In this document: positions 1,861 to 37,822 of the stretch, in pieces
How the letters are laid out: each line of letters starts with the position of its first letter
Position numbering within the stretch: the first letter of the stretch is position 1
Virus record (IMG/VR): IMGVR_UViG_3300030098_003284
Location: 9,945-53,283 of that record
Source: a virus
Length of the DNA stretch: 43,339 bases
Direction: 5' to 3' (one strand)
Position numbers and translations under genes: made by a program
Notes under the pieces: model-generated
The model's database searches: none
Told to the model about the DNA's origin: nothing
What the model saw: the letters and a program-made list of their open reading frames with translations, nothing else

Positions 1861-4800
1861 TTAATTTCCGAATTTAGAAAGAGCTTCTATAGCTCTTCTT
1901 CTTTCCCAAACTCCCATGTTTTTCTTAACTTTCTTTCTTCTACTTTTCTTTTTCTTTCTTAGTCCAGTCATTTCATAGAAAGAATTAGCTAATTTTCTTT
2001 GTTCTTTAGAAGGAAATAGTCCTAGTTCTAACCTAAGCCAATCAATAAAACCTCCAGCTTCTGTCCACATATCACCACCATAAGATAATTGTCTTGCAAG
2101 CATAGAATTTATCCAATACCACTTTTCATAAGTTTCTTGATTTTTGCTTGTTCTTACAGCTTGTTCAGCAGCTTTATCAAATACTTGCATTTTTGTAGGA
2201 TCTTCGTGTGATCCATAAAATTCTGCAATTTCATTAGCACCTACAGCTGTAAATATAGCATCCATAGCTTTCTTACCTATTTGATAGTTAGGTCCAGCAA
2301 AATAACCTAAACCCTGATCATAAGTAATGTCCATAAATCTTTCTTCTATATCTGATGAATCACCACTAAATAATTTTTGTCTATTCATTTCAAGCCATGT
2401 ACCAGCAATTTCAAGGTCTTGCAATACATCATTAGAAAATAATTTAGCAAGATTTGTTCTTGCGGGTATTGATACACCTAGAATCATAGATTGTATCAAA
2501 CCAAATCTCATCATTCTAATCATTTCTTCACTTCTAAAATCTCTAGCCGATACAGATATACCTGCATCCCTAATCCATTTATACATCATATTCATCATAC
2601 TAAACTTATAATGAGAAAACTGACCTAATCCAGCTTTAGCAAACTTAACTATAGCTGTATCAGTATCTTTTGGATTTATAATTCTTGCTTTATTCCATTT
2701 AGCATATTCAAAATGCAAATCCATAGTAGCATTATAAGCTGTTTGTGCTGCTGTTGACTCTATATATTCATTAATTACTTTTCTAGTTTTATCTCCATGA
2801 ATACTTCTTAAATCTTCAATAGTTACCTCATAACCATCACCCTTCTGTTTCTTTATTTCAGCAACTTTTTCATAACCTAATACTTTCCTTGCTAAATAAT
2901 TATCAGGAGTTTGTTCTAAATTCATATGTGCTAAAGCAAACGCTGTTTTAAAAGTTCTTCCTCTATTCCAATCTTCAACTACCCTGTGTGCAAAACCTGT
3001 TTTTTTAGCAACAGCACTAGAAACATCAGCAACTTTACCTACTATACTTTTGTCTCCAATAATAGTTAATTCACCTTTAGCATTTACATAAAGACTACCA
3101 TCAGTTGAATAAGCATCTTCTAAAGCACCTCTTGATTGTTCACTTAATTGCTCATTAGCATACTGCTTTGATTTTTTCCTACTAAATGGATTCATATCTT
3201 TTATACCATCAAGCGCTCCACCTATTATAGATTTACCATTATGCCATTGTAGACCATAATGCTCCAACCATTTATTTAGTTTAGTTTTATTTTGTTCAGC
3301 TAAAGCTGATTTGCTGTAAAAAGCTCTACCTTCAAAGTAGGCTTTTATACCAAATTCCTTTAACTCATAAAGTCTTTGCGAACCATTTCTAGCAGCAGAC
3401 CTTAGATTTCCGCCCATCAATCTAAAATAAGTATAAGATGTCATAGCTCTCATCATATCTTGAGCAAATCTATCTTTAGTAGGGTCTTTAGTGTTTATTT
3501 CCTGATAAACATCCTTTAAAATTTCCATCATATCCATAGCAGAATCTTCTAATTGTTTATCTTTAGAGGCTCTTGCTGGCTTTAAATGGAAGTCATTTAA
3601 ATCATTTAATGCTTTACTAAATGATGCTTTTAAATGAGTCTTATAGTTAAACATACCTACATCATTAGAATATTTTCTTAAAAAGAAATAAGGGTCTTTT
3701 GAATATACTTTATTTAAAGTAACAGATTTATTTTTTATTTCACCAATTATTCTATCCCAGCCATCTACTTCTGCTTTTAGTTCTTTATCTATACTCAGTT
3801 TACTAGATTCAACATGCTCTCTAAGCCTATTAATAGTTGGTAAAAGTTCTAATGTAAATTGAGTCATATATTGGGGTGAAAAAGCCATCTTTGCATCTTT
3901 TCCTATAGTACCTACCATAAGGCTTTCTTCTGGCTTAAAACCTAGTTTAAATAAAGTCTTTTCTGAAGTCCAAAATTTTTGATCAATCGTCTTATTGTTT
4001 TTATCTATAACACTTTGAAACTCTATTTGTTTTATATAACTTTTAATCTTATCTACATACTCATTAGCCCAAACTAAATTCTTACCTTTTGCCATAGTTT
4101 CTATTTTTTCTAGACCCCTAACCAAAGTAACAACACTTTCTGCACGTACAACTTGATTTAATTTTGCCATATTTTTTAATTTACTTTTTTGAGCACGATT
4201 AAGAGGGACTCTGACACCATTTGACTCAACAGTCATAGTCTCAGGATCAACTCCTTGAAACAATTGATTTATTAATTCAAAAGCTCTGCCTGAATTACTT
4301 TCAAATAGTTTAATAATTTGACCATCTATATCTTTCATATTTTTCTTTAATTTAGAAAGCTTTACAGGGTCTGAAGTAAGAACCATTTGTTGAAACACTG
4401 ATTGCCAATTGTTTTGTAGTTCACTTAAATCTTTTGATTTAGAAGTTAACCCTAATTTTGTTGAAACTTTTTTAGCTACATTTGTTTCTAAAGAACCAGC
4501 AAGATCTTGAAAATCAACTAAAATTTCATTTATAGCTTTGTTTGTTTTAACATTATATCTTCTAAAAAATGAAGACTGATTTGTTAAATCACGCTCAAAC
4601 TTAGATAACTCAGGAATATTTCTCATCATTTCTTTAGGTATGTGCCATCTTTTTGCAAAATCTGAACGAGGTTTACCTATTCTTTCTGCCCAAGCACTAA
4701 CACCTATTTTAAATTTTCTAATTTCTCTATTTGTAATTGCAAATGTACCTGGATCAAAATCTGGTTGTTTTGTATATTTTTTCCACAACTCTACAAATGT

Positions 4801-5013
4801 TCCCTGATCATTAAAGCCTAACTTTTTTAAGTTAGTAAAGTTTATTCCTAAGCTAGGTATACTTTCACCTCTTTCAAAAGCTCTTGATACAACAGATAAA
4901 TCATTATAAATTTTAGCTTTTTGTTCTTTTGTTAAATTTTTAGGACGCTCAAAGATCCTTCTTCCAGACATTTTCCTTTCAAAAGCTCTTACACTGCATA
5001 ACAAATTACTCAT
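1861..5013 (-). CDS. Large internal virion (putative ejection) protein, 1050 aa
   Basis: This is the last gene of the virion operon. The start has AAGGAG six nucleotides upstream and lies 8 nt after the giant protein gene. The protein is mostly helical and Lys-rich, with no signal peptide. Residues about 820-880 contain hydrophobic stretches (FGLIQSMILGVSIPA), preceded by an aromatic segment with FSHYKFSMMNMMYKW, and the C-terminus is strongly basic (LRKKKKSRRKKVKKN). Size, position beside the putative virion RNA polymerase and lack of enzyme motifs fit a protein stored in the capsid and ejected with DNA, possibly forming or lining the channel through the cell envelope. This is inference from context; I recognise no named domain. 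Confidence 0.7.
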   Translation of the reverse strand: MSNLLCSVRAFERKMSGRRIFERPKNLTKEQKAKIYNDLSVVSRAFERGESIPSLGINFTNLKKLGFNDQGTFVELWKKYTKQPDFDPGTFAITNREIRKFKIGVSAWAERIGKPRSDFAKRWHIPKEMMRNIPELSKFERDLTNQSSFFRRYNVKTNKAINEILVDFQDLAGSLETNVAKKVSTKLGLTSKSKDLSELQNNWQSVFQQMVLTSDPVKLSKLKKNMKDIDGQIIKLFESNSGRAFELINQLFQGVDPETMTVESNGVRVPLNRAQKSKLKNMAKLNQVVRAESVVTLVRGLEKIETMAKGKNLVWANEYVDKIKSYIKQIEFQSVIDKNNKTIDQKFWTSEKTLFKLGFKPEESLMVGTIGKDAKMAFSPQYMTQFTLELLPTINRLREHVESSKLSIDKELKAEVDGWDRIIGEIKNKSVTLNKVYSKDPYFFLRKYSNDVGMFNYKTHLKASFSKALNDLNDFHLKPARASKDKQLEDSAMDMMEILKDVYQEINTKDPTKDRFAQDMMRAMTSYTYFRLMGGNLRSAARNGSQRLYELKEFGIKAYFEGRAFYSKSALAEQNKTKLNKWLEHYGLQWHNGKSIIGGALDGIKDMNPFSRKKSKQYANEQLSEQSRGALEDAYSTDGSLYVNAKGELTIIGDKSIVGKVADVSSAVAKKTGFAHRVVEDWNRGRTFKTAFALAHMNLEQTPDNYLARKVLGYEKVAEIKKQKGDGYEVTIEDLRSIHGDKTRKVINEYIESTAAQTAYNATMDLHFEYAKWNKARIINPKDTDTAIVKFAKAGLGQFSHYKFSMMNMMYKWIRDAGISVSARDFRSEEMIRMMRFGLIQSMILGVSIPARTNLAKLFSNDVLQDLEIAGTWLEMNRQKLFSGDSSDIEERFMDITYDQGLGYFAGPNYQIGKKAMDAIFTAVGANEIAEFYGSHEDPTKMQVFDKAAEQAVRTSKNQETYEKWYWINSMLARQLSYGGDMWTEAGGFIDWLRLELGLFPSKEQRKLANSFYEMTGLRKKKKSRRKKVKKNMGVWERRRAIEALSKFGN

Positions 5014-5021
5014 ATATCTCC

Positions 5022-8000
5022 TTAATCTTTATAACAATTCAACATTTGTTTAACCCATTCACTAGTAGATATTTTAGAACCTCCATGCTCACCCAAATTC
5101 TTTCTAGTTAATTTATCAAACTCAGTAAATCTTAACTTTGTTGCACCAAATCTTTTTAAAGTGCCATCAGATAATGTTAAATTTTCCATTCTACCAAATT
5201 GCTCATTAATAGAAATACCTGCTTTTTCCATTACTTTGCTAGCTCTATACAATCTAACAGGATCAATCTGACCTTTTCCTTGAGCGAAATCAAGCATTAA
5301 TTTTGCAGCATTTCTAGTATTAGCATTTGTAGCCTCTAATTGTTCAAATATCCTAGGGCTTAATATAACATCTTTTATAATAGGATTGTTAGTTAAATCT
5401 ATTGATGTTTGTCCTAAATCAGCAGTATACATTGCATCTTTAGTTAATTTATAATCAAGATTAGGATTTTTCTTCATAGCATATCCTATTCTTTTATTCA
5501 TTTCAATATCACGCAACATTACTTCTGCAAAACCTTTGTCACCAACTCTATCGCCATTTAATATTTTTGTTAGTAAAGACATTGTTGCTTCAGAGTTTTT
5601 ATTTTCAAAATAATAATATCCTTTTTCACCTCTATGTAATCCTATTGATGTATAGCTTATCATTTTTTGACTAACACCAGGTGTAAGTAGCCCATAGATT
5701 AAAGCTTTTCTGTATGTCTCAACTTCTGCAGCATCACCTATTTCAAACAAATGTTTATTCAAAATCCTTTCAACTTCTAAATAATAGTTATCTTTTTCTC
5801 TTTTAGTTTGCTTAGGCATTTTTTCTAGAGATGCAATTTCAGCATTTATTTTACGTATATCTTGACTAACAGATTCTTTAATAGAACTATAATGCATTTC
5901 ACGATGATTACCATTCTTATCTATAATAATAGGTGGATTAGCAAAAGCATTGTGTAATATTTCCATACCTAATTGTTCTTGAGGATCAGTTATTTTAAAA
6001 TACCTTCCATTTTCTATCTGTTTATCACCTTTATTTAAGTATTTTGTGTTTTTTTGACCAGCTAAAATAACTTCTTTTATATTACCACTAGCATCTATTA
6101 TAACTCTGTGTGTATTAGAAGTGTTTGTCCATGTATCTGGTTTAAAACTACCTTTGATTTTATTTTCTTTTATATCTTTAGGTGCATATTTATAAGCTAA
6201 AGATTCTTCTACTATAGCAAGAATTTCTCTAGCCCTATTTAACTTACCTTGTATTTGATTAGCTTTTGCATTAGTAGTAGGGTCTCCTCTATAAAAGTTT
6301 TTCGAATCTTGAAGTTCTATTTCTAGTTGTTGAATTGTTTTCTTTAAACTAATAGCTTTTAAAGCATCAGCTTCAGATCTTACATATTCTGTTAAAGCTT
6401 TATCAATTATTTTACTTTTATATACTTTTCTATCTAAACCTGGATCAGCTTTAGAAAAATTATTCATAATATAATCGTTTATTAACTCATACTCCGATTG
6501 ACTTCTACCTATATTACCAGCTTTCCTAAACTCATTAGAGCTATAATAAGTTTGATACAAACCTTTCATAGCAACATCATATGGAGCAGAACTTTCTGCA
6601 AAATACCTAGCAATATGATTAAAAGAAGAACTCATGTCAACATTTTTATCAACAGCATATTTAGAACCATAAGAACCATTAACAGCTAAGTTTAATATAT
6701 TACTATAAGCATCATGATAAGCTTTTAAACTAGCTTTACTGGTTATTCCTGAAGGATCTTCCATTAAGCCTTGATTAAACTTTAAATACCTATTTATAGG
6801 ATCTATGACAAGGTTTCTAATAGTACTTTGCACATTAGCAAATTTGGGATTATTCAAACCTCCTGAATAACTGCTAAAATCTACAGGCTTTATATCAGTT
6901 GGATTGTTTTTATTAACCCAAGTTAATTCAAATATACCATTTTCACCAAACCAGATTTCATTTTGATACCTTTTTATATTAGCAAACTCAGACTGTTCTT
7001 TGCTTGGAGGGTTTTTATACATGTCAATAAACAATTTAGCTGCTTCACTTATATTATTAACTGTTGAATGATATTTCCCTTTAGTGTTTAATCTAACTTG
7101 AAATATTTGGTTTCCAATATTTTGCTCTGCAACAACTCCATCATGTCGATATACATTTGCTAAATAAGTTGATGTTTGATGCATTTTAATAAATTGACCT
7201 CTAGCTAAACCAGCTTCATTCCTAATAATATCTTCAGAAATATTCGTACCTAAAAGGTCACTTAATTTATGAGAAATAAAACCTTCTTTACCATAAGGGT
7301 TGAATATGTCATTTATTTTATCCATACTTTGTGTAGTAACAAAACCAGCAACTTTATTTGTTTGAGTCCAATATCTACCTGGAGCTGCAGTATAATTAAA
7401 TGATTTATCAAAATCGAAGTCTGCATCTTGAGGAGTAATGGCATCTAGGTAATTCATCCTACTTAAATTACCAGAATTTTTATCTGTATGCCAATCGCCA
7501 GTAGTTACATCTTTTGCTATTTTACTTATAACAACATCACCCATCATATTTCTTGGTTGTCTAACATTTAGAGTACCTAATGCATAAGAAATTCCTGTAT
7601 CCTTTATTTTAATATTGTCAAGCATTTCAGCAACTTCAGATAGTTTATATTTATTACTTAAGAAATAATCACCGTTTGCATCTTTTAAATCAAACATCTC
7701 CTTATCTTTGCCTACAGCCTTATCATAAACAGCTTTATTTATTTTTTCACCACCTTTAACTTCTATAATAGACCTTAATTTTTGACCACCTGTATAAGCA
7801 TCAATATCTATTATTCTACCCTTACTATCTATCATTCTACCTTCTACTTGAACAAACTTTTCTCCTCCAGCTAATTCAATTACAAACATATCAGCTTCTC
7901 TAATTACACCATCTTCAGCTTTATATCTTCTTCTTTGAATAATTACATTTTGAACTTCACTTGAAGATCCGTTTGATACATCACCATATCTTTTAAAAGG

Positions 8001-11000
8001 TTTTTGAGATGCGTAATAAGAAGGAGTAAATTCACCAAACAACCTAACAACATCTCTATCACCTACCCTAGACCTTACTGTAGGTTTTAGAGTTCCAAAA
8101 TCAGCACTCATAACATCCAAAGAACCATCAGGTACAATACCACCAGAAATAGCCCCATTATTCATATTATAACTTATTAAGTCTCTTTCTAATTTTCTTA
8201 ATAGGTGAGGTTCTAAAATTAAACCATTTCTTAATAAAACATTACTCATAACACTATTAATTTGAGAAGGGTCTCCAGTTTTTGCATTACTTCCTAATAC
8301 TTTTTGAGCTATAGCTGTTCTTTCTATAACATCTCCATGAACTTTATGATACATATCTTTAAAGTTATCAAGTTTTAAATCTACACCAATCCATTCTCTT
8401 ATACCTATATCATGACTCATATGAACACCAGCATTTTGACCAACCATAGGATCATGTTCTCTTGATACTGTCCTTATATTGAATGCTTCAAAAGGCACAT
8501 CAACAAAACTTTCACCAGCATTTCTACCACCTTGTTGCATATCTTTACCATCAATAGTCTTAACTTTTCTCATTAAACTTATATGGTCAAGCCAACTCGC
8601 TCCTCCAGAAAAGGCTCCAGGGTCAGTTTCTTGTGGTTCTAAATACAATTCTCTTTGCTCTTTATTTACTCCTTCTTTTAGAGTATTTATTTTATTAGAG
8701 CTTTTAAATACAAGAGCATCTACACCCCATTGTTTTAAAAGAGCCTCAACTCTGGGATCATATTTCATAGCTGTTTTTACATAATATTGCTGTATTCTAC
8801 CATAATTTTTTTGTCCTGTTTCAACATTGGCCCAGCTAATAGTAGGTTTTATTCCACCTGATTTAAAACCTATAATATCCCCAGTAACTTCATGAACCCT
8901 AACCATGTCTGGATTTAAACCATAATGCATCATCATAGCTAATTGAGCTTCAAATGTATTATACATTTCTCCATCAACTATAGATTTTCCAACATTTTCA
9001 GCAGCTTCCATGTTAATTTTATATTCTTTTTCATATATTTCTAACTCTTTATTTGTAATTTGTTTTTTATTATATAAGTCTCTTTTTGCATCTAACTCTT
9101 TTTTGAAGTCATGTTTTGCTCTATCTGTAGCTGAAAAAATATTATCAACTTTTCTACCATTAACTATTATATCACCTTCATCATTTACAGATGCAATTTT
9201 CATACCTTTTTTCTTTTTAGGGTCAAACCAATCAGACATTTTACCTATAACATTACCGTTACGATCTAATATATCTCTGTTCCAAGCCTTTTGATGTAGT
9301 GGAGATTCAGATTTAGAATACATTATACCTGATTTGATTCTATTTTCAACAGTTGGAATTATACCAGATTTAGGTTCATTCATCTTATCATACTTAGCAA
9401 CCTTTTTAATAACATCAGCATCTAAATTTACACCTTCACCAGATAATATTTGTTTGATATAACCTGGATGATTAAGTAAAGCTCTAGTTAGCTTTATAGC
9501 TTCCATCTGATCATTAGGTGTCATAAGGTCTTTATTAGCTAACCTTTTAACTAACTCGTAGGCTGCTCTATGTTCAGGTGTATTTTTATTTAAATCACCA
9601 TCATACACAGCCTTTAACATCTTATAAAGTTGTCCACCTTGAGTAACTCCGCTCTCAGGTCTAAAGTTTAAAGCTATAGACTCAGCAAGACCTCCAGCTT
9701 TATCTACTCTTATAATTAAATTAGTGCTCTCATTTAAAGGAACAGCCATATATTTTCTGTCTTGTAAAGAACCAAGTTTTGTATTTTGATTTTGTATTAA
9801 GGTAGTATTGTTATTTCTATATGCCTCTGCTTTACCTTTTTCATGAACTATTTCCATATTACCTTTAGATAAAGCATTATTTAACATAGGTAAATCTTTA
9901 CCTGTAATATCTCTTATAACCTTACCATCTGTACCTGTTCCACTTTTTTCTAATAAAAAGATATTTTGTTGGTTTGGATCTAAATATTCTAAAATACCTG
10001 TAAATCCCCTATTTTTTGCTAAACCCACAGTCTTGTCTACCATAATCATTTTGTTGCTTTTTAGCTCCATTTTTAAGCCTTTTACAACTGTTTTAGAGAA
10101 ATGAGCCTGTGCTATTGAATGAGCATCTTCGAATATGACTGAATTACGAGGCCTTTCAGATGCAGGCATTTCTTTTACAGCTTTTTTCATAGCCAAAACT
10201 AATGGTTCTCTTACTAATTTGTTAAAATTATTAACACCTTCAGGAGTTGTAACATCTAAATCAACATATTTAGGCAAAGATTTTAAGCTATTTTCTAAAG
10301 TTTCAAACTCTCTTACCCATGCTCTATTTTGACTTTTCCACGCACTCATTTCAGCTGAATCATCTAAGTACATATCTTTTAAGACTTCTTGAACCCAACC
10401 TTTTATTTCTTTTGCTTCAATTCTATTACTTTTATCAAGTTCAAATAACTGCTCTAAACCTCTATTGCTAAATTTATATTTAGCTTTAAATTGGTTTGTG
10501 CTAAGTTTAATAGCTACATCTTGAACATCTTTTTCAGTTACATCTCTTGAAAACTTTTCTATTTCAGCAGCAATTTCATGCTTTAGAGAGCTTTCTGTAA
10601 ATGCTCTTGATTGCCTGTTTTGTTCAACTTTTTTCTGAATTAAATTTAATGCTTGTGTATAAAGTTTTATACTTGCATCATTTACATCTTGCATTTCAAG
10701 AGCAACCATAGACGTTCTTATATCTTCAGAATATTTTTCTAAAGCTCTTAACATATAAGGATCTCTTTCCTCAACAGCATTTTTAACTAACCTTTTTAGG
10801 TCTCTAACTTGATCTCTAGACACAACTAATTCTTTAATTAAATTATCATTCTTAACTAAAACTTTCTTATCTGGATCTAGTGTTCCATGTTTAATTGATT
10901 CTATTAATGACTCTATTCTATCTTGTTCTCTTGCTAAAGATTTATGAACTAACCATTGAGAATCACCTAAGAAGGAATCCATTCTAATTTTACCTATAGT

Positions 11001-14000
11001 ATGAGCTTTTCTTAATGAACCAACAAAATCACCTTTAGTTAATTCAACCATACCATCAGCTTCTGATTTAAACTCTAAAGGAAAATTAGATTTTTCTATT
11101 TTTTGAGTAAAGGTATCATAAAACTCTAAAAGTTCTTTTGCGTACTCTTTACTTATCTGTCTATTAGCTCTTAATGCAGTAATTTCTTTACTAATTATAT
11201 CATATTGAGGTATCTCTATTTTACCTAACTCCCCTTTGTTAAACTTAGGGTCTAATATTAGTTCAGCTGCAGAAGCTTTATAATCTAATTTTAAATTAAT
11301 ATTATCTAAACCTAACTTATCTATAGCTCTTTCTACTGCATAAGTTTTAAAGTTTACTATATTTTGACTCTCAACAAATAAATCCCCTGTTAAACTTACA
11401 CTAGCATCATATAGTTCTTTAGCTTCTCTTAAAGATAAAGTAGGTGCTTTTTTGTTTTTGGTTACAGCCTCTGGATTAGTAAGCCTTGCAACTTCATGTA
11501 AGTTTTTTAAATAAGATTGATACACACCAAAATTAGGGTCTGCTTCGGCCTTTTTGTCTATTTCTGGAGCTTTTTCATAAAGTATCCAGTCTCTCATTCT
11601 GGTATTAAAATCTTCAGCCATAACTGGATCGTAGTTATGCTCCTTACCATTTGTTATTAATTCATAACCATCAAACTGTTGCTTTAATCTTACAGCCCTA
11701 TCATAAGCAAGTGCCCAAGTTTTATTACTCATAATATTTACATGTTCACCACCAATCTCTCCAAAATCACCATCTACTAAAGGATTTTTAGCCCATTCCT
11801 TACCATATGTTAACTCCATTAATTTTGCAGAATGATCTAGAAATGATTGATGTATTTTAGATGCCTGTTCAGGAGTGACGTCAATTTTACCACCCTTACC
11901 TTGAACAAGCCAATTATTTTTAACAGCCATATCTTGAACATCAATAAGAGATAACTTAATATCTTGACCAAGTTTAGGAAAAGAATTTGAATCTACTATA
12001 ATTTTTGGTCCAGTAATTTTACCTGTTGCTTGATCCATTGGTTCATAATTTAACTCTAATATTCTATATACATCCTGAATATAATCTTGTTGTATTTTTT
12101 GAGGCCTTAAAGCAGCCTCTGCAACAGTTTTATCTTTCCATAAATTTAATGCTTGGGTATCACCTAATATTACTTTTTTGCCACCAAATTCAATATTTGA
12201 AACTCTACTAACAAAATCAAAAGCAGCTTCAGGTGTAAATAATAAATCTTGAGAATATTTTCCAGAATAGTTTTTATAAAGGTCCATAATTTCTTCTGCA
12301 ACAAAACCTTTATTTAAAAATTCACGAGCTGAACTTTCTGTAATTTCTCCAGATTTAACTTTTTCTGCTATAGCTTTATTGTAAGCAACTCTCATAGGTA
12401 CACCAGTTTGATTTTTGTGTGCACCAGAATTTTCTATACTACTTTTTATCTCATTAAATTCAAAAGTTGTATCAAACTCTTCATGGGTTAATCTTTGATT
12501 AAAAGTCTTTCTAGGACTACCCATATTCCAAGCAGCAGTAATTCCTTCTAATTGCTTAGCATCTTTTGCACTTATAGTTTTAACAGCAGCCATAGTCTTT
12601 TCAAATTGTCTAGCTTTAAAATTAACTAAGCCCATTAATGCATTGCCTGATTTATATTGTTTAATATTTCCTGATTCAAAGATTCTATTAAAAACCTTAC
12701 TATTAACAGGAGCATGAAAACTGTGAGGTTTTCTAGTAAACCACATAGCAGTCCATACATTAGCAGCAATTTCAGGAGCAGTTTCACCTAGAGAACCTTT
12801 TAAGTTTTCCCAATTCCACCCCATTTCATTTCCTCTTTGTATAATACTAGGAGCATTCATAGCCATTACACCTGCAGCCATTCTAGGTAATGAATGAAAT
12901 ACATCTACACCAAATTCTTTTGCCCAACCTAAATAAGCATCCCTTGTAAAAGATGTTCTTATTTCCTTTAGAAATCCTTGCATTTCCTTTAAAGATGCAC
13001 TTTCTTTTAACCACCATTCACTTCCACGATCATCCCATTTTTTAAATGCTTTTGATAATTTTTTATCAGAAATAGTATTCAAGGCATCTAAATGTTGTCT
13101 AATTTCCTTTTTGCTATAACTACTTGGTCTTTTCCAATATTTTTGTGTGTGTCCACTTAAAATTGTTCTTAATTGTTTTGAGTGACTTAAGCCTGTACCA
13201 CCTCTTACAAACTTTGCTGGTCCAATAAAAGCAAAATGATATGCATCTGTCATAGCATGATGCCACATACTCTCCATTACATCCCATCTGTCTACACTAT
13301 AATCACCTTCATATACATACTCACCATAATCGTCTCTTTTTACACCATAATATGATTGTTGCATTGAATGAGTTGCACCCTTTAAAATACCCATACCTAC
13401 ACCAATTAAAGCATCATAAGCTGCAGCAGATATAAGTGAATTAGTTTTATGACCTAATACTTTTGGAGCCATACCGCCAGTTAATTGTTTTAATCCAGGT
13501 ATCATATCTGTTAGATGACTACTTACTAAATATAGTTGTTTTTGAGCGTCTATAGGGTGATTTCTAGTAGCTATATTATAAACCTCTTTTGATAATGGTT
13601 TTAATATATTTTCATCACTAATTTTTAAAATATCACCTAAGTTTTGTGATAGTTTACCAGTAACAATTTCTTCAAAAGCTTCTCTTTGAAAACCAGCTTC
13701 TAAATTAAACCTTAAAGAATTTTCAGCAAATATATCATAAGAATCATCAGCTATATTTCTAGCAACAGTATCATCTATTTTTGCCCCAGCTTTATCTAAA
13801 CTTTCCTTTATAGTCTTTTCACCAAAAGCTTCACTAACTTCCTTGGCAGATTTTCTAACACCAAATTTAACACTATTACCATAACCTCCATGTCTTGCTA
13901 AAGGTGAAGTTTTTAATGCCTTACCTAAAACAGCACTTCCACCCTTTGTTACTCCTTTAGCAAACAGGCCACCGTAAAAGAAAGAAGGGATACTACCAAT

Positions 14001-14351
14001 AGCTTGTCCTCCTATATATCCTGCTCTACCCCATCCAGTTAATTGGTCCCAGTCACCTTCAACACCACCAACGCTTTCTGCTATAGATGCTTCCCAAGTA
14101 TCTACTTGATCTGGGTCATCAGCAAGAGCTTTACTAAACGTATCAGCAACACCAAAAGTTTCTAAAGACACAGCCTCAGCTCCACCCCATAAAAACTGAC
14201 CTAAAAAGTCTAAAGCACCATACCCTGAAGTTTTTACAGCCGCTCTAATTTCTTCTTGATCTGCTCCTAGATCTACATCTAAACCATATTGTTGGTCGTA
14301 TTGACTTTCATAAGTGTCGTATAAACTTTGTCTAAAATCTCCGTTTGCCAT
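5022..14351 (-). CDS. Giant virion protein, putative two-barrel DNA-directed RNA polymerase, 3109 aa
   Basis: This gene takes up about 21% of the window and starts at an ATG with AGGAG. Residues 2309-2318 read DADFDFDKSF, matching the position of the metal-binding DxDxD loop of the large beta-prime-type double-psi barrel (NADFDGD in bacterial RNAP, DFDID in the crAss-like virion RNAP). R2264-Q-P2266 lies 45-47 residues upstream, like the R-x-P of that barrel. A block with K1883 and K1887 (LVFKSSNKIN) and a later REHD at about 1964-1967 could belong to the beta-type barrel. The N-terminal 330 residues contain Gly/Ala-rich hydrophobic stretches (about 43-61, 105-146, 305-325) suitable for membrane contact. 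The gene sits among putative ejection proteins, which suggests packaging and injection for early transcription. No single-subunit (T7/N4) polymerase motif was found. The role is inferred from motifs. Confidence 0.75.
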   Translation of the reverse strand: MANGDFRQSLYDTYESQYDQQYGLDVDLGADQEEIRAAVKTSGYGALDFLGQFLWGGAEAVSLETFGVADTFSKALADDPDQVDTWEASIAESVGGVEGDWDQLTGWGRAGYIGGQAIGSIPSFFYGGLFAKGVTKGGSAVLGKALKTSPLARHGGYGNSVKFGVRKSAKEVSEAFGEKTIKESLDKAGAKIDDTVARNIADDSYDIFAENSLRFNLEAGFQREAFEEIVTGKLSQNLGDILKISDENILKPLSKEVYNIATRNHPIDAQKQLYLVSSHLTDMIPGLKQLTGGMAPKVLGHKTNSLISAAAYDALIGVGMGILKGATHSMQQSYYGVKRDDYGEYVYEGDYSVDRWDVMESMWHHAMTDAYHFAFIGPAKFVRGGTGLSHSKQLRTILSGHTQKYWKRPSSYSKKEIRQHLDALNTISDKKLSKAFKKWDDRGSEWWLKESASLKEMQGFLKEIRTSFTRDAYLGWAKEFGVDVFHSLPRMAAGVMAMNAPSIIQRGNEMGWNWENLKGSLGETAPEIAANVWTAMWFTRKPHSFHAPVNSKVFNRIFESGNIKQYKSGNALMGLVNFKARQFEKTMAAVKTISAKDAKQLEGITAAWNMGSPRKTFNQRLTHEEFDTTFEFNEIKSSIENSGAHKNQTGVPMRVAYNKAIAEKVKSGEITESSAREFLNKGFVAEEIMDLYKNYSGKYSQDLLFTPEAAFDFVSRVSNIEFGGKKVILGDTQALNLWKDKTVAEAALRPQKIQQDYIQDVYRILELNYEPMDQATGKITGPKIIVDSNSFPKLGQDIKLSLIDVQDMAVKNNWLVQGKGGKIDVTPEQASKIHQSFLDHSAKLMELTYGKEWAKNPLVDGDFGEIGGEHVNIMSNKTWALAYDRAVRLKQQFDGYELITNGKEHNYDPVMAEDFNTRMRDWILYEKAPEIDKKAEADPNFGVYQSYLKNLHEVARLTNPEAVTKNKKAPTLSLREAKELYDASVSLTGDLFVESQNIVNFKTYAVERAIDKLGLDNINLKLDYKASAAELILDPKFNKGELGKIEIPQYDIISKEITALRANRQISKEYAKELLEFYDTFTQKIEKSNFPLEFKSEADGMVELTKGDFVGSLRKAHTIGKIRMDSFLGDSQWLVHKSLAREQDRIESLIESIKHGTLDPDKKVLVKNDNLIKELVVSRDQVRDLKRLVKNAVEERDPYMLRALEKYSEDIRTSMVALEMQDVNDASIKLYTQALNLIQKKVEQNRQSRAFTESSLKHEIAAEIEKFSRDVTEKDVQDVAIKLSTNQFKAKYKFSNRGLEQLFELDKSNRIEAKEIKGWVQEVLKDMYLDDSAEMSAWKSQNRAWVREFETLENSLKSLPKYVDLDVTTPEGVNNFNKLVREPLVLAMKKAVKEMPASERPRNSVIFEDAHSIAQAHFSKTVVKGLKMELKSNKMIMVDKTVGLAKNRGFTGILEYLDPNQQNIFLLEKSGTGTDGKVIRDITGKDLPMLNNALSKGNMEIVHEKGKAEAYRNNNTTLIQNQNTKLGSLQDRKYMAVPLNESTNLIIRVDKAGGLAESIALNFRPESGVTQGGQLYKMLKAVYDGDLNKNTPEHRAAYELVKRLANKDLMTPNDQMEAIKLTRALLNHPGYIKQILSGEGVNLDADVIKKVAKYDKMNEPKSGIIPTVENRIKSGIMYSKSESPLHQKAWNRDILDRNGNVIGKMSDWFDPKKKKGMKIASVNDEGDIIVNGRKVDNIFSATDRAKHDFKKELDAKRDLYNKKQITNKELEIYEKEYKINMEAAENVGKSIVDGEMYNTFEAQLAMMMHYGLNPDMVRVHEVTGDIIGFKSGGIKPTISWANVETGQKNYGRIQQYYVKTAMKYDPRVEALLKQWGVDALVFKSSNKINTLKEGVNKEQRELYLEPQETDPGAFSGGASWLDHISLMRKVKTIDGKDMQQGGRNAGESFVDVPFEAFNIRTVSREHDPMVGQNAGVHMSHDIGIREWIGVDLKLDNFKDMYHKVHGDVIERTAIAQKVLGSNAKTGDPSQINSVMSNVLLRNGLILEPHLLRKLERDLISYNMNNGAISGGIVPDGSLDVMSADFGTLKPTVRSRVGDRDVVRLFGEFTPSYYASQKPFKRYGDVSNGSSSEVQNVIIQRRRYKAEDGVIREADMFVIELAGGEKFVQVEGRMIDSKGRIIDIDAYTGGQKLRSIIEVKGGEKINKAVYDKAVGKDKEMFDLKDANGDYFLSNKYKLSEVAEMLDNIKIKDTGISYALGTLNVRQPRNMMGDVVISKIAKDVTTGDWHTDKNSGNLSRMNYLDAITPQDADFDFDKSFNYTAAPGRYWTQTNKVAGFVTTQSMDKINDIFNPYGKEGFISHKLSDLLGTNISEDIIRNEAGLARGQFIKMHQTSTYLANVYRHDGVVAEQNIGNQIFQVRLNTKGKYHSTVNNISEAAKLFIDMYKNPPSKEQSEFANIKRYQNEIWFGENGIFELTWVNKNNPTDIKPVDFSSYSGGLNNPKFANVQSTIRNLVIDPINRYLKFNQGLMEDPSGITSKASLKAYHDAYSNILNLAVNGSYGSKYAVDKNVDMSSSFNHIARYFAESSAPYDVAMKGLYQTYYSSNEFRKAGNIGRSQSEYELINDYIMNNFSKADPGLDRKVYKSKIIDKALTEYVRSEADALKAISLKKTIQQLEIELQDSKNFYRGDPTTNAKANQIQGKLNRAREILAIVEESLAYKYAPKDIKENKIKGSFKPDTWTNTSNTHRVIIDASGNIKEVILAGQKNTKYLNKGDKQIENGRYFKITDPQEQLGMEILHNAFANPPIIIDKNGNHREMHYSSIKESVSQDIRKINAEIASLEKMPKQTKREKDNYYLEVERILNKHLFEIGDAAEVETYRKALIYGLLTPGVSQKMISYTSIGLHRGEKGYYYFENKNSEATMSLLTKILNGDRVGDKGFAEVMLRDIEMNKRIGYAMKKNPNLDYKLTKDAMYTADLGQTSIDLTNNPIIKDVILSPRIFEQLEATNANTRNAAKLMLDFAQGKGQIDPVRLYRASKVMEKAGISINEQFGRMENLTLSDGTLKRFGATKLRFTEFDKLTRKNLGEHGGSKISTSEWVKQMLNCYKD

Positions 14352-30432: not shown

Positions 30433-31989
30433 TTAAGTCCATAGAGCGTGAGTCTCAGGACAACACCACTCCATGCCAGCTTCAGTTAAGATTTGATCTA
30501 CTCTACGATCGACTCCTGAGTTCTCTAAAGTTTGAACCCCTACGTAGACTGAAGTATCTCTGTTAATTCCATTACCAACTAATGGTCTATATGCAGCATA
30601 TTTCATATTGATACCAATCATTTTAACATTAGTACCATCTAAGTGAACATTTCTTGCTACATTCATATCACCATAAACAGTTGATATAGTTGTAATATCA
30701 ATACCAAACACTTTTTTCTTACCTGATATAGAGAAATCTGCTCTATAGTTAGGTGAAACTTCAATGTTATTAGCAAAGTATCCAGATAATTTATGTAACC
30801 AATTGTAAACTGCTGTAGAACAGAAGAATACAGTTGAACCTGCATTATTGTATCTTGGATCTAGCATTGCTGATAAATCATCTAAGAAATCATCTTGTGT
30901 TTTAGTAGCTGTATTTAAACTAAATGCATTACCATATGTTGAAATAAAGTTTACTGCACCTTCTGTTGTATTATAAGTTGAGTTTTGAGACCCAAACAAC
31001 AATGCATTTTCAATATCCCATTTATGTTCAATTAGTTTTTCTTTCCAGATACGAGCCCATTCATTACCTTCATATTTTAAAACTGTAGCTCTATCAGTAT
31101 TATTCATAACTGCTGAAGTTTTGAAAATCTGAGTTTGACCATAGTTTGTAGAATATGGTTGGTCTGCCCAAGTTTCTGGATAACCAGAACCAGCAGCATG
31201 TGCTGAACCTACTACATAACATTTAAACGGCTCAAGAAATTCTTGAGATTTAGTTGTTGATGTAATTGAACCATCATATGCTAATCCAGCACCAGATTCG
31301 TCAGTAACATCAGAACCAGCAGTTGCATCTGTAAAGAATACAGCTGATCCAGAACCTTTAACACAAGTTGCATTAACGATTGCTTTGTTTACTGTTGCAC
31401 TAGCTGTTGAATTTACACCTTGACTATCAAGATCTACACTATTAACTTTCCATAATGTGTATCCAGAAGTTGTACCAGCATCTGCATTTGCTTCACTAGA
31501 AGCGTGAGGTATTTTAATGATTTGCCCAGGTATAAAGAACTTTGGTTGAGTTCCTTCAACACCTTCTGCATAATCAACTACTTGGCCATATATATTTGAC
31601 ATATTACCATCACTATTGTAATCAGTAAAGAATCCAAAGCTGTAAACATTTCCTTCAGCAGGTGTTCCAGTTGTTGCTGGATCTGTTGCAGGAATTGCTG
31701 CGCCTGAACTACTAAAATCAGCCATATATGCATATCTTTTTGTATAAGACGATCTTTTTTCAGTAAACTTGAAAGAAGGATCATCAGTTGGTTTTTTGGA
31801 AACCATGCTTAAAAATCTAAAGAATGGATCCTGCGCTAAAGCTAACTCTGATACATAATTACCAAAGTTATACTTTCTACGTAACGCACCAGTATCTAAA
31901 CTGGCGTTACCCGACGCAGAAGGATTCAAAGAATTAAGACCGCCTCCACTATATAGACTATTACCGCCTATAGTATTACTATCTGCCAT
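30433..31989 (-). CDS. Putative major capsid protein (HK97-fold type)
   Basis: Two tandem ATG (31992 and 31989) follow AAGGAG; the second has better spacing and gives 518 residues. The protein lacks enzyme motifs. It has a central region with EWARIWKEKLIEHKWDIENA, typical of a helix following an E-loop-like part, and C-terminal beta strands ending with a REF-like layout (YVGVQTLENSGVDRRVDQIL). Gene order portal, scaffold, this gene, then decoration-like genes is the classic capsid order, and the length is normal for a phage capsid protein. No exact family assignment is made. Confidence 0.8.
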   Translation of the reverse strand: MADSNTIGGNSLYSGGGLNSLNPSASGNASLDTGALRRKYNFGNYVSELALAQDPFFRFLSMVSKKPTDDPSFKFTEKRSSYTKRYAYMADFSSSGAAIPATDPATTGTPAEGNVYSFGFFTDYNSDGNMSNIYGQVVDYAEGVEGTQPKFFIPGQIIKIPHASSEANADAGTTSGYTLWKVNSVDLDSQGVNSTASATVNKAIVNATCVKGSGSAVFFTDATAGSDVTDESGAGLAYDGSITSTTKSQEFLEPFKCYVVGSAHAAGSGYPETWADQPYSTNYGQTQIFKTSAVMNNTDRATVLKYEGNEWARIWKEKLIEHKWDIENALLFGSQNSTYNTTEGAVNFISTYGNAFSLNTATKTQDDFLDDLSAMLDPRYNNAGSTVFFCSTAVYNWLHKLSGYFANNIEVSPNYRADFSISGKKKVFGIDITTISTVYGDMNVARNVHLDGTNVKMIGINMKYAAYRPLVGNGINRDTSVYVGVQTLENSGVDRRVDQILTEAGMEWCCPETHALWT

Positions 31990-32035
31990 CATTTCTCCTT
32001 AAAGGTTAATTTAAGTCTGGACAGATATAAAATAT

Positions 32036-32959: not shown

Positions 32960-35263
32960 TTATTCATTTTTGGATGAATTATCCAAATCTTTTTTAAAAT
33001 TTTGTAAAATATCTCCAGCTCTAGCTTTTGAAAGACTAGCATCATTCTTCATAGTATTACGTAATAACTTCTGCTGCCCTTCAGTTTCAATAAGCTCTTT
33101 TTCAAGACCAGACTTGACCTGTTCTTTCTTTTTGGTAATCTCCATTTCAGCATCTTGAACCTTACCTTTAATACCAGCTTGGACAAGTTGTCTTTCAAGA
33201 GTTTCAATTGTTCCGTCTTTATCTTTAACAGCTTCTTGTAGTGAAGATAATTGTCCTTGAAGTTGAGAATATAAAGATTTTCTTTGTACAATCTTTTCTT
33301 TATTTTTAATATCTGTTTCAGCAAGAACAGCTATATCATCAACAACTCCCATTTGTAATAATTGTTTTAATTCTTCTAAATATGCCCATCTATTAACAGG
33401 TAATGTAGAGCCTGATATAATTTTTGTATCAAATTTTACTGCTGTTATATCCATTGACTTGCCTATTGCTTCACCCATATCATTATAGATAGGAATATTT
33501 ATTTCTTGATCTTTACCTTCTTGTATAGCACTAGGTTGTATAATTCTAAACCTTTTGTTTGCAGTATAAGTTGCTTGAGAATAATTTAAAATCAAATTAC
33601 CCAATTGCCTTAAAGCAGGTTCAATAGATGTGTTCATCCATTGTTTAATTCTTCTTGTCCCATATTCATCTAACGCAAGCATACCTCTATAAGTTTCACT
33701 AGCACCAGCAGTATCTCCCATCATAGAACTATATATACCTGCTAAATACTCCATATCACCTTTACTTTCTTGAACTATAGAATAAAAAGCATTTGATAAT
33801 GGAGCAGGTTGAACTGGTGTTGGGGGTGTTACTCCTGGTCTTATAGGTAATAAAGCTCCTGGACTAGAAGAATATCTTTCCCAAGTTTCAGAATCTATAG
33901 CCCCTTCTTCATACATCCATCTTAAACTACTACCTAAAGATGCATTATGAACCATAATTTGATGTGCTTTATTTATTTCTTGTTGTTTTCCAATTAATGG
34001 AGCAACTGCACTTAAAGGATATGGAGTTCCTGTCCATTTATAGTGAAAAGGTACAAGAGGATATTCTGTTACGGTTTCTGGCAAAATTACCTCAGCTAAA
34101 ACTTTATCGCCTACAACTAAAGTTTGTTTAACTCTAGTATTATAAAACTTTATTGCCTCAATAACATTTTCAGCAATTGTTGGATTTTTCAACATAACTT
34201 TATATTCTTTTTCAGATATAATTGCGTTTTCTGTTTTAGAGGCTTCTGCTTGCAATTTAGCCATACATTCTTGTTGATAAACTTGTAATTGTTGTTGCAT
34301 CATTTCTTGTGCTTTTTGAATTTCAAGTTCATATCTTTCAGGCAACATTTGACCTTGTTGTAAAGCCATATCCATTTGTTGTTTTTGTTCTAAGAACTGA
34401 ACTTCTAATTCTTGAGCCATTTTTTGAACTTCAATTTGACATTGTTCTTCTAATTGTTTCATGACTTTAGGGTCAGGAGGTATTCTATAAAATAAGTTTA
34501 TGTAAGCAACTTTAATTTTTTCATATACTTCAAAGTATTCACACAACATATCTACACTTCCGTCAGCATTTACTGCTTGAGAATTTTGCTCTGTTGTGTC
34601 ATTATACATAAATAACTTTTGGTCTTCATCTCCTAAAGCTCTTACACTAAATGATTTTTGTGCTGATTCATCACTATTTGATTTAGATATTTTATTTTTA
34701 TATTGAGGGAATAATTTCATTAAATGATTCTTAGGAAGTATTTTCCTTATCATTATATATGCAGCATCTTTAAATAACATATCTCTAGATTTAGGATCTA
34801 CATATATATCAAAAGGTTCTGGATTTTGTATAACAACTTCTCCCATACCATTATCAGCATCTTGATCTACAGATACTAATAAATAACCTATACCTTTTGT
34901 AACGCAATCATTAACAGCATTTGTATATAATGTAGCCCCTTCTGAGTTGCCCCATACATAATCTGATAAATCAGACATAACCGCAGCTAAATCAGTATCA
35001 CTACCTTCAATACCTACTGCTTGCCATCTAGGGTTGTTAGCTGTAGCATAAAAATTTAACATTTCAACAACAGGAAGAATCCTATTAATTGTAAAAGTAG
35101 GCATACCTTGTTCTTCTAGAGCGTCTTTTTCTTGTTGACTCATTTGTTCATCATGAGCAAACTCATAACCTTTTTGATTTATGATTTCCCATTGTTTTCT
35201 TGTCCAATTATTTGACAAATTAAACAATTGTCTTACTTCATCAGCTCTATTTTTTTTAGCCAT
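32960..35263 (-). CDS. Portal protein (P22/N4-like size), 767 aa
   Basis: The start has AAGGAG upstream. The N-terminus shows the usual portal pattern of helices and then GMPTFTINRILPVVEMLNFY with a following NNPRWQAVG, as in P22- and N4-type portals. Residues 160-190 have NPEPFDIYVDPKSRDMLFKD, a clear portal core feature. A coiled-coil region at residues about 265-343 (Gln/Glu-rich) and a second at about 658-738 may form the crown and barrel. The length is in the range of N4-type portals. It is upstream of scaffold and capsid in the transcript, as expected. Confidence 0.85.
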   Translation of the reverse strand: MAKKNRADEVRQLFNLSNNWTRKQWEIINQKGYEFAHDEQMSQQEKDALEEQGMPTFTINRILPVVEMLNFYATANNPRWQAVGIEGSDTDLAAVMSDLSDYVWGNSEGATLYTNAVNDCVTKGIGYLLVSVDQDADNGMGEVVIQNPEPFDIYVDPKSRDMLFKDAAYIMIRKILPKNHLMKLFPQYKNKISKSNSDESAQKSFSVRALGDEDQKLFMYNDTTEQNSQAVNADGSVDMLCEYFEVYEKIKVAYINLFYRIPPDPKVMKQLEEQCQIEVQKMAQELEVQFLEQKQQMDMALQQGQMLPERYELEIQKAQEMMQQQLQVYQQECMAKLQAEASKTENAIISEKEYKVMLKNPTIAENVIEAIKFYNTRVKQTLVVGDKVLAEVILPETVTEYPLVPFHYKWTGTPYPLSAVAPLIGKQQEINKAHQIMVHNASLGSSLRWMYEEGAIDSETWERYSSSPGALLPIRPGVTPPTPVQPAPLSNAFYSIVQESKGDMEYLAGIYSSMMGDTAGASETYRGMLALDEYGTRRIKQWMNTSIEPALRQLGNLILNYSQATYTANKRFRIIQPSAIQEGKDQEINIPIYNDMGEAIGKSMDITAVKFDTKIISGSTLPVNRWAYLEELKQLLQMGVVDDIAVLAETDIKNKEKIVQRKSLYSQLQGQLSSLQEAVKDKDGTIETLERQLVQAGIKGKVQDAEMEITKKKEQVKSGLEKELIETEGQQKLLRNTMKNDASLSKARAGDILQNFKKDLDNSSKNE

Positions 35264-35669: not shown

Positions 35670-36272
35670 TTATTTAATATATTCAAATACTTGCTTATTA
35701 CTAGGGTTATACGGTGCTAACAATGGATCTATTGTTCTTTCTTTACCGTAATATTTTCTATTTGGATTGGGTGATTGATACAAACTATCTAACAATTCTA
35801 AAGTTTGTTTATATCCTAATTTACTTTCATCCCTATTCATCTCATACCAATCTTTTAAGTAAGGATCATTTGCAATCTCTGGATACTTTCTTACAAACTG
35901 ATCAACAAATCTAGTTTCACCTACATGTCCAGAATCCCAGTCCCAACCCCAAAACTTATCATACTTATTTGCAACATGCCCTAAAACTTTATATGGTTGT
36001 AACGTTCTTGCAGTTCTACCATCCATTATTTTACCATCAATAAATATAGCATAATCTACAGCTGCCCCAAAATTGTGTAAGCTTATAGTTGATTTACTTG
36101 CACCTTTTTTAACATTTTCTCTTTGAGTTTCAGGGTGTCTATGATGAGATGTAATTTTAACTTGAACTTTTGAATTAGGATACAAGTTTCTTAAGATAGC
36201 TTCTGTTTCTTTACCTATCTGTTTTCCTTCTTTTAAAAAAGATTCAGAACTAAATGTTTTATTTTCACTCAT
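35670..36272 (-). CDS. Second M15-like peptidase, distinct from the endolysin
   Basis: The ATG at 36272 is preferred, forming ATGA with the terminase stop; a TTG at 36284 is an in-frame alternative. The protein (200 aa) holds SLHNFGAAVDYAIF, i.e. H-x6-D (H66 and D73 from this start) of the M15 fold, and WGWDWDSGH with a late histidine (H116). The middle contains HHRHPETQRENVKKG, reminiscent of M15 peptidases. It resembles D-Ala-D-Ala carboxypeptidase-like enzymes more than the small endolysin. It may be a virion-associated cell-wall enzyme used on entry, or a second lysis enzyme. Confidence 0.65.
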   Translation of the reverse strand: MSENKTFSSESFLKEGKQIGKETEAILRNLYPNSKVQVKITSHHRHPETQRENVKKGASKSTISLHNFGAAVDYAIFIDGKIMDGRTARTLQPYKVLGHVANKYDKFWGWDWDSGHVGETRFVDQFVRKYPEIANDPYLKDWYEMNRDESKLGYKQTLELLDSLYQSPNPNRKYYGKERTIDPLLAPYNPSNKQVFEYIK

Positions 36273-37822
36273 GCTACTACCCAATTTTTAGCTTTTGGTT
36301 TATGTTTATACCATCCATCTTTGTTTTTATTCATTCCTTGAGGAGGGAATGCATACTTACATGCATAAGCAAGAGCATCTATAGTATCATCATGAGCCAT
36401 ACGAGGACCAAATGTTGCAATCTCTCTATGTAAATCATAATGCTCTTTTTTAATATGTATTTGCCCTACAGAAAATCTTTGAGCAAGTATTTCTTGTATT
36501 CTATCCCTTTTAGACATACGAGTTCCTGGCTTCTCCTCTTTAAAAGGAACATTAAATTGATTCCTTCTTCTCATTTCAGCACGAATAGCTTGAAACACTG
36601 GTTTACTCATAGTCGTATCCTCGATAGTAAATAAGGTAGGTTTATAAAAATTTGCATAATCAAATATGTAATCTACTATACCTTTTCTATCCATACCTGG
36701 TATACCAAGCACAGGTAATGAACGGTTCCTTATATAATCTAAAATATAAATATTATTATCTGGTGTTACTGCAACAGCCAGTATAACACTAAAATCGGAA
36801 TCGCGCCTAGCACTATCAGTAGCGGGATCAACACCCACATAGATTGAACACGGCTTCGGATCATCTCCATTGGGTATAACATAAGTGACACCACTTTCTT
36901 CATCTTTTGTAAACTGCCCTTCCCAAAATTTAATATGATCTCTTGTAAATATTGCATCTTCTTCACTTTGTACCTCCATCATGTATTCTTGATAAAATTT
37001 TTGCGGAGTTCCACTATCTGCGTAGAACTTCTTTTTTCTTTCCATTTCTTTATGACCAAACCATGAAGGCCATAAAGGTGTGCCATCTTCTTGTAAAGCT
37101 TTATATGTTATTACTCTCCAACTAAAATCTTCTCCAGTTTTCTTAGCTTGTTCATGTCCTACTAAAATCTTTTGTATAAATGCATCATAATGCACTGGTG
37201 TTCCATTAATTCTCAATCTACCTGTCTTTGGTTCGAGCGCAGGAAAGACGACAGCAGTAACGAGGTTGGATATTTTACTCCTGCTTTCTGGTGTAATCGT
37301 ATTATTCTCATCCTCAAAATCATCGAGAACAATAAGATCATAACGTTTATGAAGCTTAGCACCACCACGAATACCAGATAGATTGGACTTAGAAATAAGT
37401 TTACAATTGTTTTTAAGTTCAATATCATCTTCTGTCCATTTCCTTCCTTTTAAATCACCAAAATAATATTTAATTCTTTCATTAAATTCTAAATGATATT
37501 TTATATAATCTAAGTTAGGTACTGATATTTTACTTGAAGCAGCTACCCATCCATAAAATAAAGGTTCATCAGCAAAAACAAAATCATGAAGTATATTACA
37601 TTTAGTCAAAACAGTCTTACCATGACCCCTAGGTAATATAACAGCAAGTTGCCTACAAGATAAATCATTTAAAGAATCAGCAACTTCATAATGGAAAAAT
37701 GGAGATTCACTCCTCATAAAATCTTCATGTAAAAATAACTTCCCAAATGCAATTAAATCCTTATGAGCTAACTGCAGTTCTTCTTCTGCTTGACTTACAT
37801 TTCTTGAATTTATATTAGCCAT
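36269..37822 (-). CDS. terL: Terminase large subunit (packaging ATPase and nuclease)
   Basis: This encodes a 517-residue protein. Walker A is at residues 63-70 (LPRGHGKT), Walker B at 163-168 (LIVLDD) with an acidic E170, and the INGTPVH motif at about 206-212 is the coupling motif. The C-terminal RNase H-like nuclease has D332 in VGVDPATD, E401 in IEDTTMS and the D478-D479...D482 group (HDDTIDAL). All expected motifs are present and the length is typical. It cuts concatemers and drives DNA into the prohead with the portal. The start overlaps the stop of the LamG gene as TAATG. Confidence 0.93.
   Translation of the reverse strand: MANINSRNVSQAEEELQLAHKDLIAFGKLFLHEDFMRSESPFFHYEVADSLNDLSCRQLAVILPRGHGKTVLTKCNILHDFVFADEPLFYGWVAASSKISVPNLDYIKYHLEFNERIKYYFGDLKGRKWTEDDIELKNNCKLISKSNLSGIRGGAKLHKRYDLIVLDDFEDENNTITPESRSKISNLVTAVVFPALEPKTGRLRINGTPVHYDAFIQKILVGHEQAKKTGEDFSWRVITYKALQEDGTPLWPSWFGHKEMERKKKFYADSGTPQKFYQEYMMEVQSEEDAIFTRDHIKFWEGQFTKDEESGVTYVIPNGDDPKPCSIYVGVDPATDSARRDSDFSVILAVAVTPDNNIYILDYIRNRSLPVLGIPGMDRKGIVDYIFDYANFYKPTLFTIEDTTMSKPVFQAIRAEMRRRNQFNVPFKEEKPGTRMSKRDRIQEILAQRFSVGQIHIKKEHYDLHREIATFGPRMAHDDTIDALAYACKYAFPPQGMNKNKDGWYKHKPKAKNWVVA

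Follow-up and report, generated by a model that had tools for sequence, protein, structure and literature searches.

To our knowledge, virion RNA polymerases of the two-barrel kind are known experimentally in very few phages: the crAss-like phage phi14:2, the Thermus phage P23-45 and the jumbo phages of the PhiKZ type. The public record of the phi14:2 polymerase gp66, confirmed to be the protein of structure 6vr4, reads R1322-I-P...D1361-F-D-I-D-K, that of P23-45 gp96 reads R-N-P...DFDGD at 779, and eleven other crAss-like polymerases read R-[IVT]-P...D[FYL]D[IV]D. According to the summary given in PMC7886860, gp66 is delivered together with the DNA and begins the transcription of the early genes. 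The same is described for gp96 of P23-45, a virion polymerase fused to the tail tape measure protein (TMP), in a Thermus phage which also has the non-virion polymerase gp64 (PMC10770324).

The window, that is the whole stretch of DNA analysed here (43,339 nucleotides), corresponds to bases 9945-53283 of the 54,116-base IMG/VR virus record IMGVR_UViG_3300030098_003284. Its largest ORF is uninterrupted and encodes a protein of 3109 aa, in the following called the giant. With a probability of about 0.85 we regard this protein of an uncultured phage as a DNA-dependent RNA polymerase of the two-barrel (double-psi beta-barrel) type, formed by one polypeptide, belonging to the crAss-like/QDE-1 branch and contained within a virion protein. 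Its features are listed below, with conservation counted over 76 aligned giants of the classes F, Y and N, which are described further on.

5022..14351, minus strand: ORF of the giant (3109 aa), a predicted two-barrel RNA polymerase of the virion with long N- and C-terminal parts fused to it
6552..8984, minus strand: predicted RNA polymerase core, residues ~1790-2600, with both predicted barrels and the bridge-helix region (F-Y and F-crAss profile matches, AlphaFold model, BFVD matches)
8847..8849, minus strand: K1835 (in GGIKPT), conserved in 76/76 across F, Y and N
8775..8777, minus strand: K1859 (in VKTAMKY), candidate catalytic lysine of the beta-like barrel, conserved in 75/76
8691..8693, minus strand: K1887 (in FKSSNKIN), candidate catalytic lysine of the beta-like barrel, conserved in 75/76, aligning with GVKVG of gp66
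7554..7562, minus strand: R2264-Q2265-P2266, the R-x-P preceding the predicted metal loop; proline in 76/76, arginine invariant in the F and Y classes only
7407..7421, minus strand: DFDFD, residues 2311-2315, predicted magnesium-binding loop of the beta-prime-like barrel; Asp triad in 76/76 giants
7152..7235, minus strand: candidate bridge helix of 28 residues, 2373-2400 (...ARGQFIKMHQTSTYLANV), assigned by DSSP as helix 954-981 of the modelled fragment
7023..7025, minus strand: D2443, in the bridge/trigger region by position, conserved in 76/76

Read on the minus strand, positions 7407-7562 give RQPRNMMGDVVISKIAKDVTTGDWHTDKNSGNLSRMNYLDAITPQDADFDFD; the plus strand of the same segment is interrupted by stops. 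The numbering and spacing of R2264-Q-P2266 and DFDFD 2311-2315, which a previous sequence-only reading had taken, without naming the strand, as the likely active site of a two-barrel polymerase, were found to be as stated there. The position of helix 2373-2400 in the model suggests that it is the bridge helix.

Among the described enzymes, gp66 of phi14:2 (6vr4) gives the group its closest match both in profile and in fold. Gp66 and the group are alike in being single polypeptides encoded among structural genes, in the beta-like lysine segment lying upstream and in an R-x-P that precedes D[FY]D[IV]DK by 39-40 residues. They differ in length (3109 aa for the giant of the window, 2180 for gp66), in the fourth loop residue (F, L or M in the F class, I or V in the gp66 type) and in the distance between the barrels, which is larger in the giant (424 residues from K1887 to D2311 against ~300 in gp66), and the relation between them escapes BLAST and HMMER. 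The P23-45 gp96 polymerase is also a two-barrel enzyme inside a giant virion protein, with R-N-P 38 residues before DFDGD, but it is N-terminal and fused to the tape measure, whereas here the polymerase lies in the C-terminal half. The RNAi polymerases of the QDE-1/RDR type carry two barrels in one chain and are the second-best fold match of a Y-class model; unlike the giant they are eukaryotic, RNA- or DNA-templated, without virion context and without a sequence match. The bacterial beta-prime subunit (NADFDGD, with RAP upstream) has the same order of R-x-P, DxDxD and strand, but gives no profile match and belongs to an enzyme of several subunits, while the giant is one polypeptide.

The arrangement of the genome resembles that of another group. 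Rightward genes occupy positions 1-11.6 kb of the record and encode a DnaB-like helicase, an ERF recombinase and JAB- and ThiF-like proteins. The leftward late module comes next, with the partner protein and the giant physically first, followed by the SU10-type capsid protein, the portal and the terminase.

1861..5013, minus strand: 1050-aa partner protein, encoded immediately downstream of the giant (its homologues measure 722-1055 aa)
30433..31992, minus strand: major capsid protein, SU10-type (PF17236, E 7e-24; phrog_1328)
32960..35263, minus strand: portal protein (phrog_156, a family also matching the N4 portal)
36269..37822, minus strand: terminase large subunit (phrog_38, as N4 gp68)

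As in N4 (Schitoviridae), where the virion polymerase gp50 is a giant at the early/late junction, the giant sits at the left end of a leftward late module, and terminase (TerL) and portal fall in the same PHROGs (phrog_38 and phrog_156). The N4 virion polymerase is a T7-like single-subunit enzyme with a different fold; the giant of the window carries the two-barrel signature instead, with no PHROGs or Pfam match. TerL shares 23.5% identity with that of N4 (E 1.5e-15), and the portal, which has phrog_156 in common with the N4 portal, is not alignable with it pairwise. The best portal and TerL matches are to Paenibacillus, Aeromonas and N4-like phages, with no crAss record among the matches listed, and the record of ~54 kb compares with 90-100 kb in Crassvirales. 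The statement that the phage lacks crAss-like hallmarks therefore stands, given the PHROGs shared with N4 and nearest named relatives that are not crAss-like.

Several other genes of this genome were noted. A protein with a concanavalin/laminin-G-like domain (E 2e-22), adjoining the terminase at 37822-39546 of the window, is likely to bind a receptor or glycan, and a metallo-phosphoesterase (phrog_221, E 8e-24) lies within the late module at 23303-24082. In the record before the window (L002, 5126-6741) a Prok-JAB protein (weak, E 5e-4) adjoins a ThiF/E1-like one (E 2e-18), possibly a ubiquitin-like or counter-defence pair of the phage. No early promoter motif was found. Sigma-70-like sites in the early region number 50, against 60.5 in shuffles, a comparison that speaks neither way, and a repeated 14-mer (L002, 1793 and 3153) was rejected as a candidate as it sits in apparent small hydrophobic ORFs.

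The partner protein has no database match. Its homologues lie directly after the giant in 69 of the 70 relatives in which this could be tested, in all three classes, and are related across classes by hhalign (F-Y, P 1.7e-85; F-N, P 1.5e-46). The contig IMGVR_UViG_3300030333_004008 (L016, L113, L131) has a TerL 95%, a portal 81% and a major capsid protein 75% identical to those of the window, whereas in their aligned parts the giant shows no more than 24% identity and the partner 22%. Going by these identities, change in the polymerase pair, through divergence or through exchange, is far quicker than in the head.

From the analysis as a whole we infer metal binding, RNA synthesis, packaging, injection and the choice of the transcribed genes, as follows. 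The polymerase, embedded at about residues 1790-2600 of the 3109-aa virion protein, would hold the catalytic magnesium by D2311, D2313 and D2315; P2266 with R2264 would have the same role as in other two-barrel enzymes, shaping the loop and touching the nucleotide that comes in, and K1859 and K1887, perhaps also K1835, would touch the substrate from the second, beta-like barrel. The giant would most likely be packaged in the capsid, be injected with the DNA or ahead of it, and transcribe the rightward early genes before the host RNA polymerase is redirected or joins in. The adjoining ~1050-aa protein is probably injected along with it as a partner. What suggests packaging in the virion is the late structural module, the position at the early/late junction as for the N4 virion polymerase, the PHROGs that TerL and portal share with N4 and the size of the giant.

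An active two-barrel polymerase could also be made in the infected cell and transcribe middle or late genes. We consider this unlikely: the giant is encoded in the leftward module together with portal, capsid and terminase, and its ~3000 aa with large non-polymerase parts are like those of the virion proteins N4 vRNAP, the crAss RNAPs and the TMP-RNAP of P23-45. The late-operon position speaks only indirectly for packaging, and P23-45 is an example of a phage with both a virion and a non-virion two-barrel polymerase (PMC10770324). In the record of the window no other RNA polymerase was found, the search for a T7-type enzyme (PF00940) being negative but run without a positive control, and beta-prime (PF04997) being absent from the 54,116 bases.

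The reading of the giant as a two-barrel polymerase was examined in its relatives. The giant has no family match in PHROGs or Pfam and no match among PDB sequences, and residues 1600-2599 gave no convincing match in named phages; the giant of phiA008 (2051 aa) was set aside, being without DxDxD. A whole-protein scan of viral contigs returned no relatives because the peptides chosen were poorly conserved. A scan with the 75-residue active-site segment gave 11 viral contigs and one with an active-site profile gave 35, from which 34 distinct giants of 2654-3213 aa, the F class, were obtained. Their loops are DFDFD (12), DYDFD (1), DFDMD (5) and DFDLD (16), the Asp triad is invariant in all 34, and all 34 carry R-x-P as RQP, RTP or RVP, at a spacing of 40-50 residues from the loop in 33. 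In the remaining F-class giant, in IMGVR_UViG_3300025151_000039 (L112), an insertion of ~150 aa within the predicted barrel separates R-x-P from DFDFD. No other part of the whole giant is as well conserved as the stretch around 2247-2350.

The terminase of the window phage has at least 600 relatives among viral contigs. From this terminase-sharing set 12 contigs of 33-55 kb were drawn for inspection, and a giant with a DxDxD loop was found in all 12; two belong to the F class and the rest read DYDVD (Y class), DNDGD or DHDGD (N class), or DFDTD. Scans for the N and Y classes returned 34 and 18 loci, respectively. The N class reads A/S-[IV]-P...QRDNDGD, with the arginine of R-x-P gone and the proline kept. 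A further divergent giant, at L151 3377-12325, reads PAPR...QRDFDTDK and falls outside the three classes. Altogether about 75 related giants in three divergent classes, absent from the libraries searched, occur in marine-type phage contigs. The F active-site profile found no relative in 84,980 prokaryote genomes, and therefore no host or prophage was found.

The N-terminal part of the giant behaves differently from the core. Residues 1-500 (~12850-14351, minus strand) can be traced by hmmsearch as far as the N-class giants (E 1e-12 to 3e-18), unlike the N-class core, which escapes HMMER recognition. One hydrophobic segment is present in this part, at residues 304-325. The N-terminal ~500 residues are possibly an ejection or pore part common to the classes.

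Non-conservation of DFDFD among homologues, which the sequence-only reading had named as evidence against itself, was not found: D2311, D2313 and D2315 are each present in 76 of the 76 aligned giants. Columns at least 90% conserved also include D1878, G2294, N2300 and D2303, and the second and third lysines are 27-28 residues apart in F, Y and N. Two details of that reading had to be modified. The phenylalanine in the fourth position, thought to be a new variant of the loop, does differ from the I/V of the gp66 type and from the G of P23-45, but it alternates with L and M in close relatives, and the Y and N classes have V and G there, respectively; therefore this is a tolerated position and not a unique invention. 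The conserved R-x-P is true of all F and Y members, but not of the N class with its A/S-[IV]-P. This loss, together with the extreme sequence divergence between the classes, would be in line with a vestigial polymerase, i.e. an ejection or structural protein which keeps the fold without catalysis. That seems very improbable, since across the same highly divergent classes not only the Asp triad (76/76) but also the three lysines (75-76/76) are kept, and therefore the expected catalytic residues are under strong purifying selection.

The relation to known polymerases, and with it the case for a polymerase of the two-barrel class, was measured by profile-profile comparison with hhalign, whose P-values refer to single comparisons and for which reversed-profile controls gave 0.18 to 0.87. 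The classes match one another (F-Y, P 8.8e-24 over 666 columns; F-N, P 1.1e-15; N-Y, P 5.6e-25) and Y matches the crAss gp66 family (P 4.4e-8 over 424 columns) in an alignment where the two R-x-P motifs coincide and DYDVDK is paired with DFDIDK. The direct comparison of F with crAss gave two colinear matches, weaker than those via Y, one in the lysine segment (P 0.0016) and one in the R-x-P/DxDxD segment compared alone (P 0.0009). The F lysine segment (VKTAMKY...DALVFKSSNKIN) pairs with ...LKYSQA...ESIVLDGVKVG of gp66. A beta-like barrel with conserved lysines is thereby predicted in the same chain, K1835, K1859 and K1887 being kept and their segment aligned to gp66. A joint F+Y+N profile did no better against crAss (P 0.002) than Y alone, probably due to misalignment. 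The N-class profile alone had no match to the crAss profile, a profile comparison with the single sequence of P23-45 gp96 was not significant, and HMMER with the F and Y profiles against PDB sequences found no RNA polymerase, only chance matches such as Wza.

AlphaFold2 modelling of residues 1420-2600 with 36 relatives gave a pLDDT of 81.7 and a pTM of 0.82, with the active-site loop among the lower-confidence parts (blocks of pLDDT 62-73). In this model DSSP shows the order strand, RQP, strand, strand, short helix, DFDFD loop, strand, which we take to be that of the beta-prime barrel. A Foldseek search of BFVD returned 14 matches below 1e-3, some of which are segments of crAss-like giant proteins: piece 3 of cr118_1 (E 2.8e-9), which by its coordinates should contain the DxDxD of that protein, cr130_1 (E 1.7e-6) and cr111_1, annotated as 'Putative RNA polymerase' (E 5.6e-4). 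Against PDB the same model found no solved RNA polymerase (best E 0.29, unrelated), and because of this the Y-class core was folded as an intermediate (pLDDT 70). Its top PDB match is 6vr4, the phi14:2 virion polymerase (E 4.1e-11), followed by QDE-1 (1e-5), RNA polymerase II and the PhiKZ non-virion polymerase (1.9e-3). Y bridges the gap, and therefore the protein of the window is linked to a solved polymerase from F to Y by profile and from Y to 6vr4 by fold and profile. The proposed assignment to the two-barrel class is thus supported by the conserved catalytic residues, the F-Y-gp66 profiles, the BFVD matches and the Y model on 6vr4.

QDE-1 and RDR2 are among the solved structures whose folds come closest to the Y-class model, which raises the question of an RNA-acting enzyme or a primase, as is possible for QDE-1/RDR enzymes, in place of a DNA-dependent transcriptase; with a DNA-dependent phage virion polymerase as the nearest match, and in a dsDNA phage with its own DnaB-like helicase, there is very little room for it. 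A coincidental occurrence of DFDFD and R-x-P in some unrelated protein is refuted for practical purposes, for although D[FY]D.D alone arises in 5.8% of 5000 composition shuffles of the 3109-aa protein, and with R.P 25-60 residues upstream in 0.42%, odds which are weak if taken alone, the conservation in all relatives is far stronger evidence and is joined by the colinear gp66 profile match and the Foldseek matches.

What is described here is a new family within an already known type of enzyme, carried by phages outside the crAss-like group. It brings in ~75 distinct giants of three classes, which Pfam and PHROGs do not contain and which go with a terminase group of 600 or more viral contigs. 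With the Y class as an intermediate, the link to gp66 becomes measurable by profile comparison, and the family can therefore be given a position in the tree of polymerases. The loops DFDFD, DFDLD, DFDMD, DYDVD, DNDGD, DFDTD and DHDGD are natural variation of the metal site in which residue roles can be probed, and the natural loss of the R-x-P arginine in the N class allows the same for this residue. We lean towards a broader picture of a large marine lineage of short-tailed type, with packaging genes and layout like those of N4, which has a two-barrel virion polymerase of crAss/QDE-1 ancestry in the slot of the T7-like enzyme of N4, in at least three classes that outpace the head genes, one of them without the R-x-P arginine, and with a conserved co-injected partner of ~1000 aa. 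If the role of an injected polymerase is the same in these phages as in the N4-like ones but is filled by unrelated enzymes, this would be a clear case of replacement of the transcription machine within one virion architecture.
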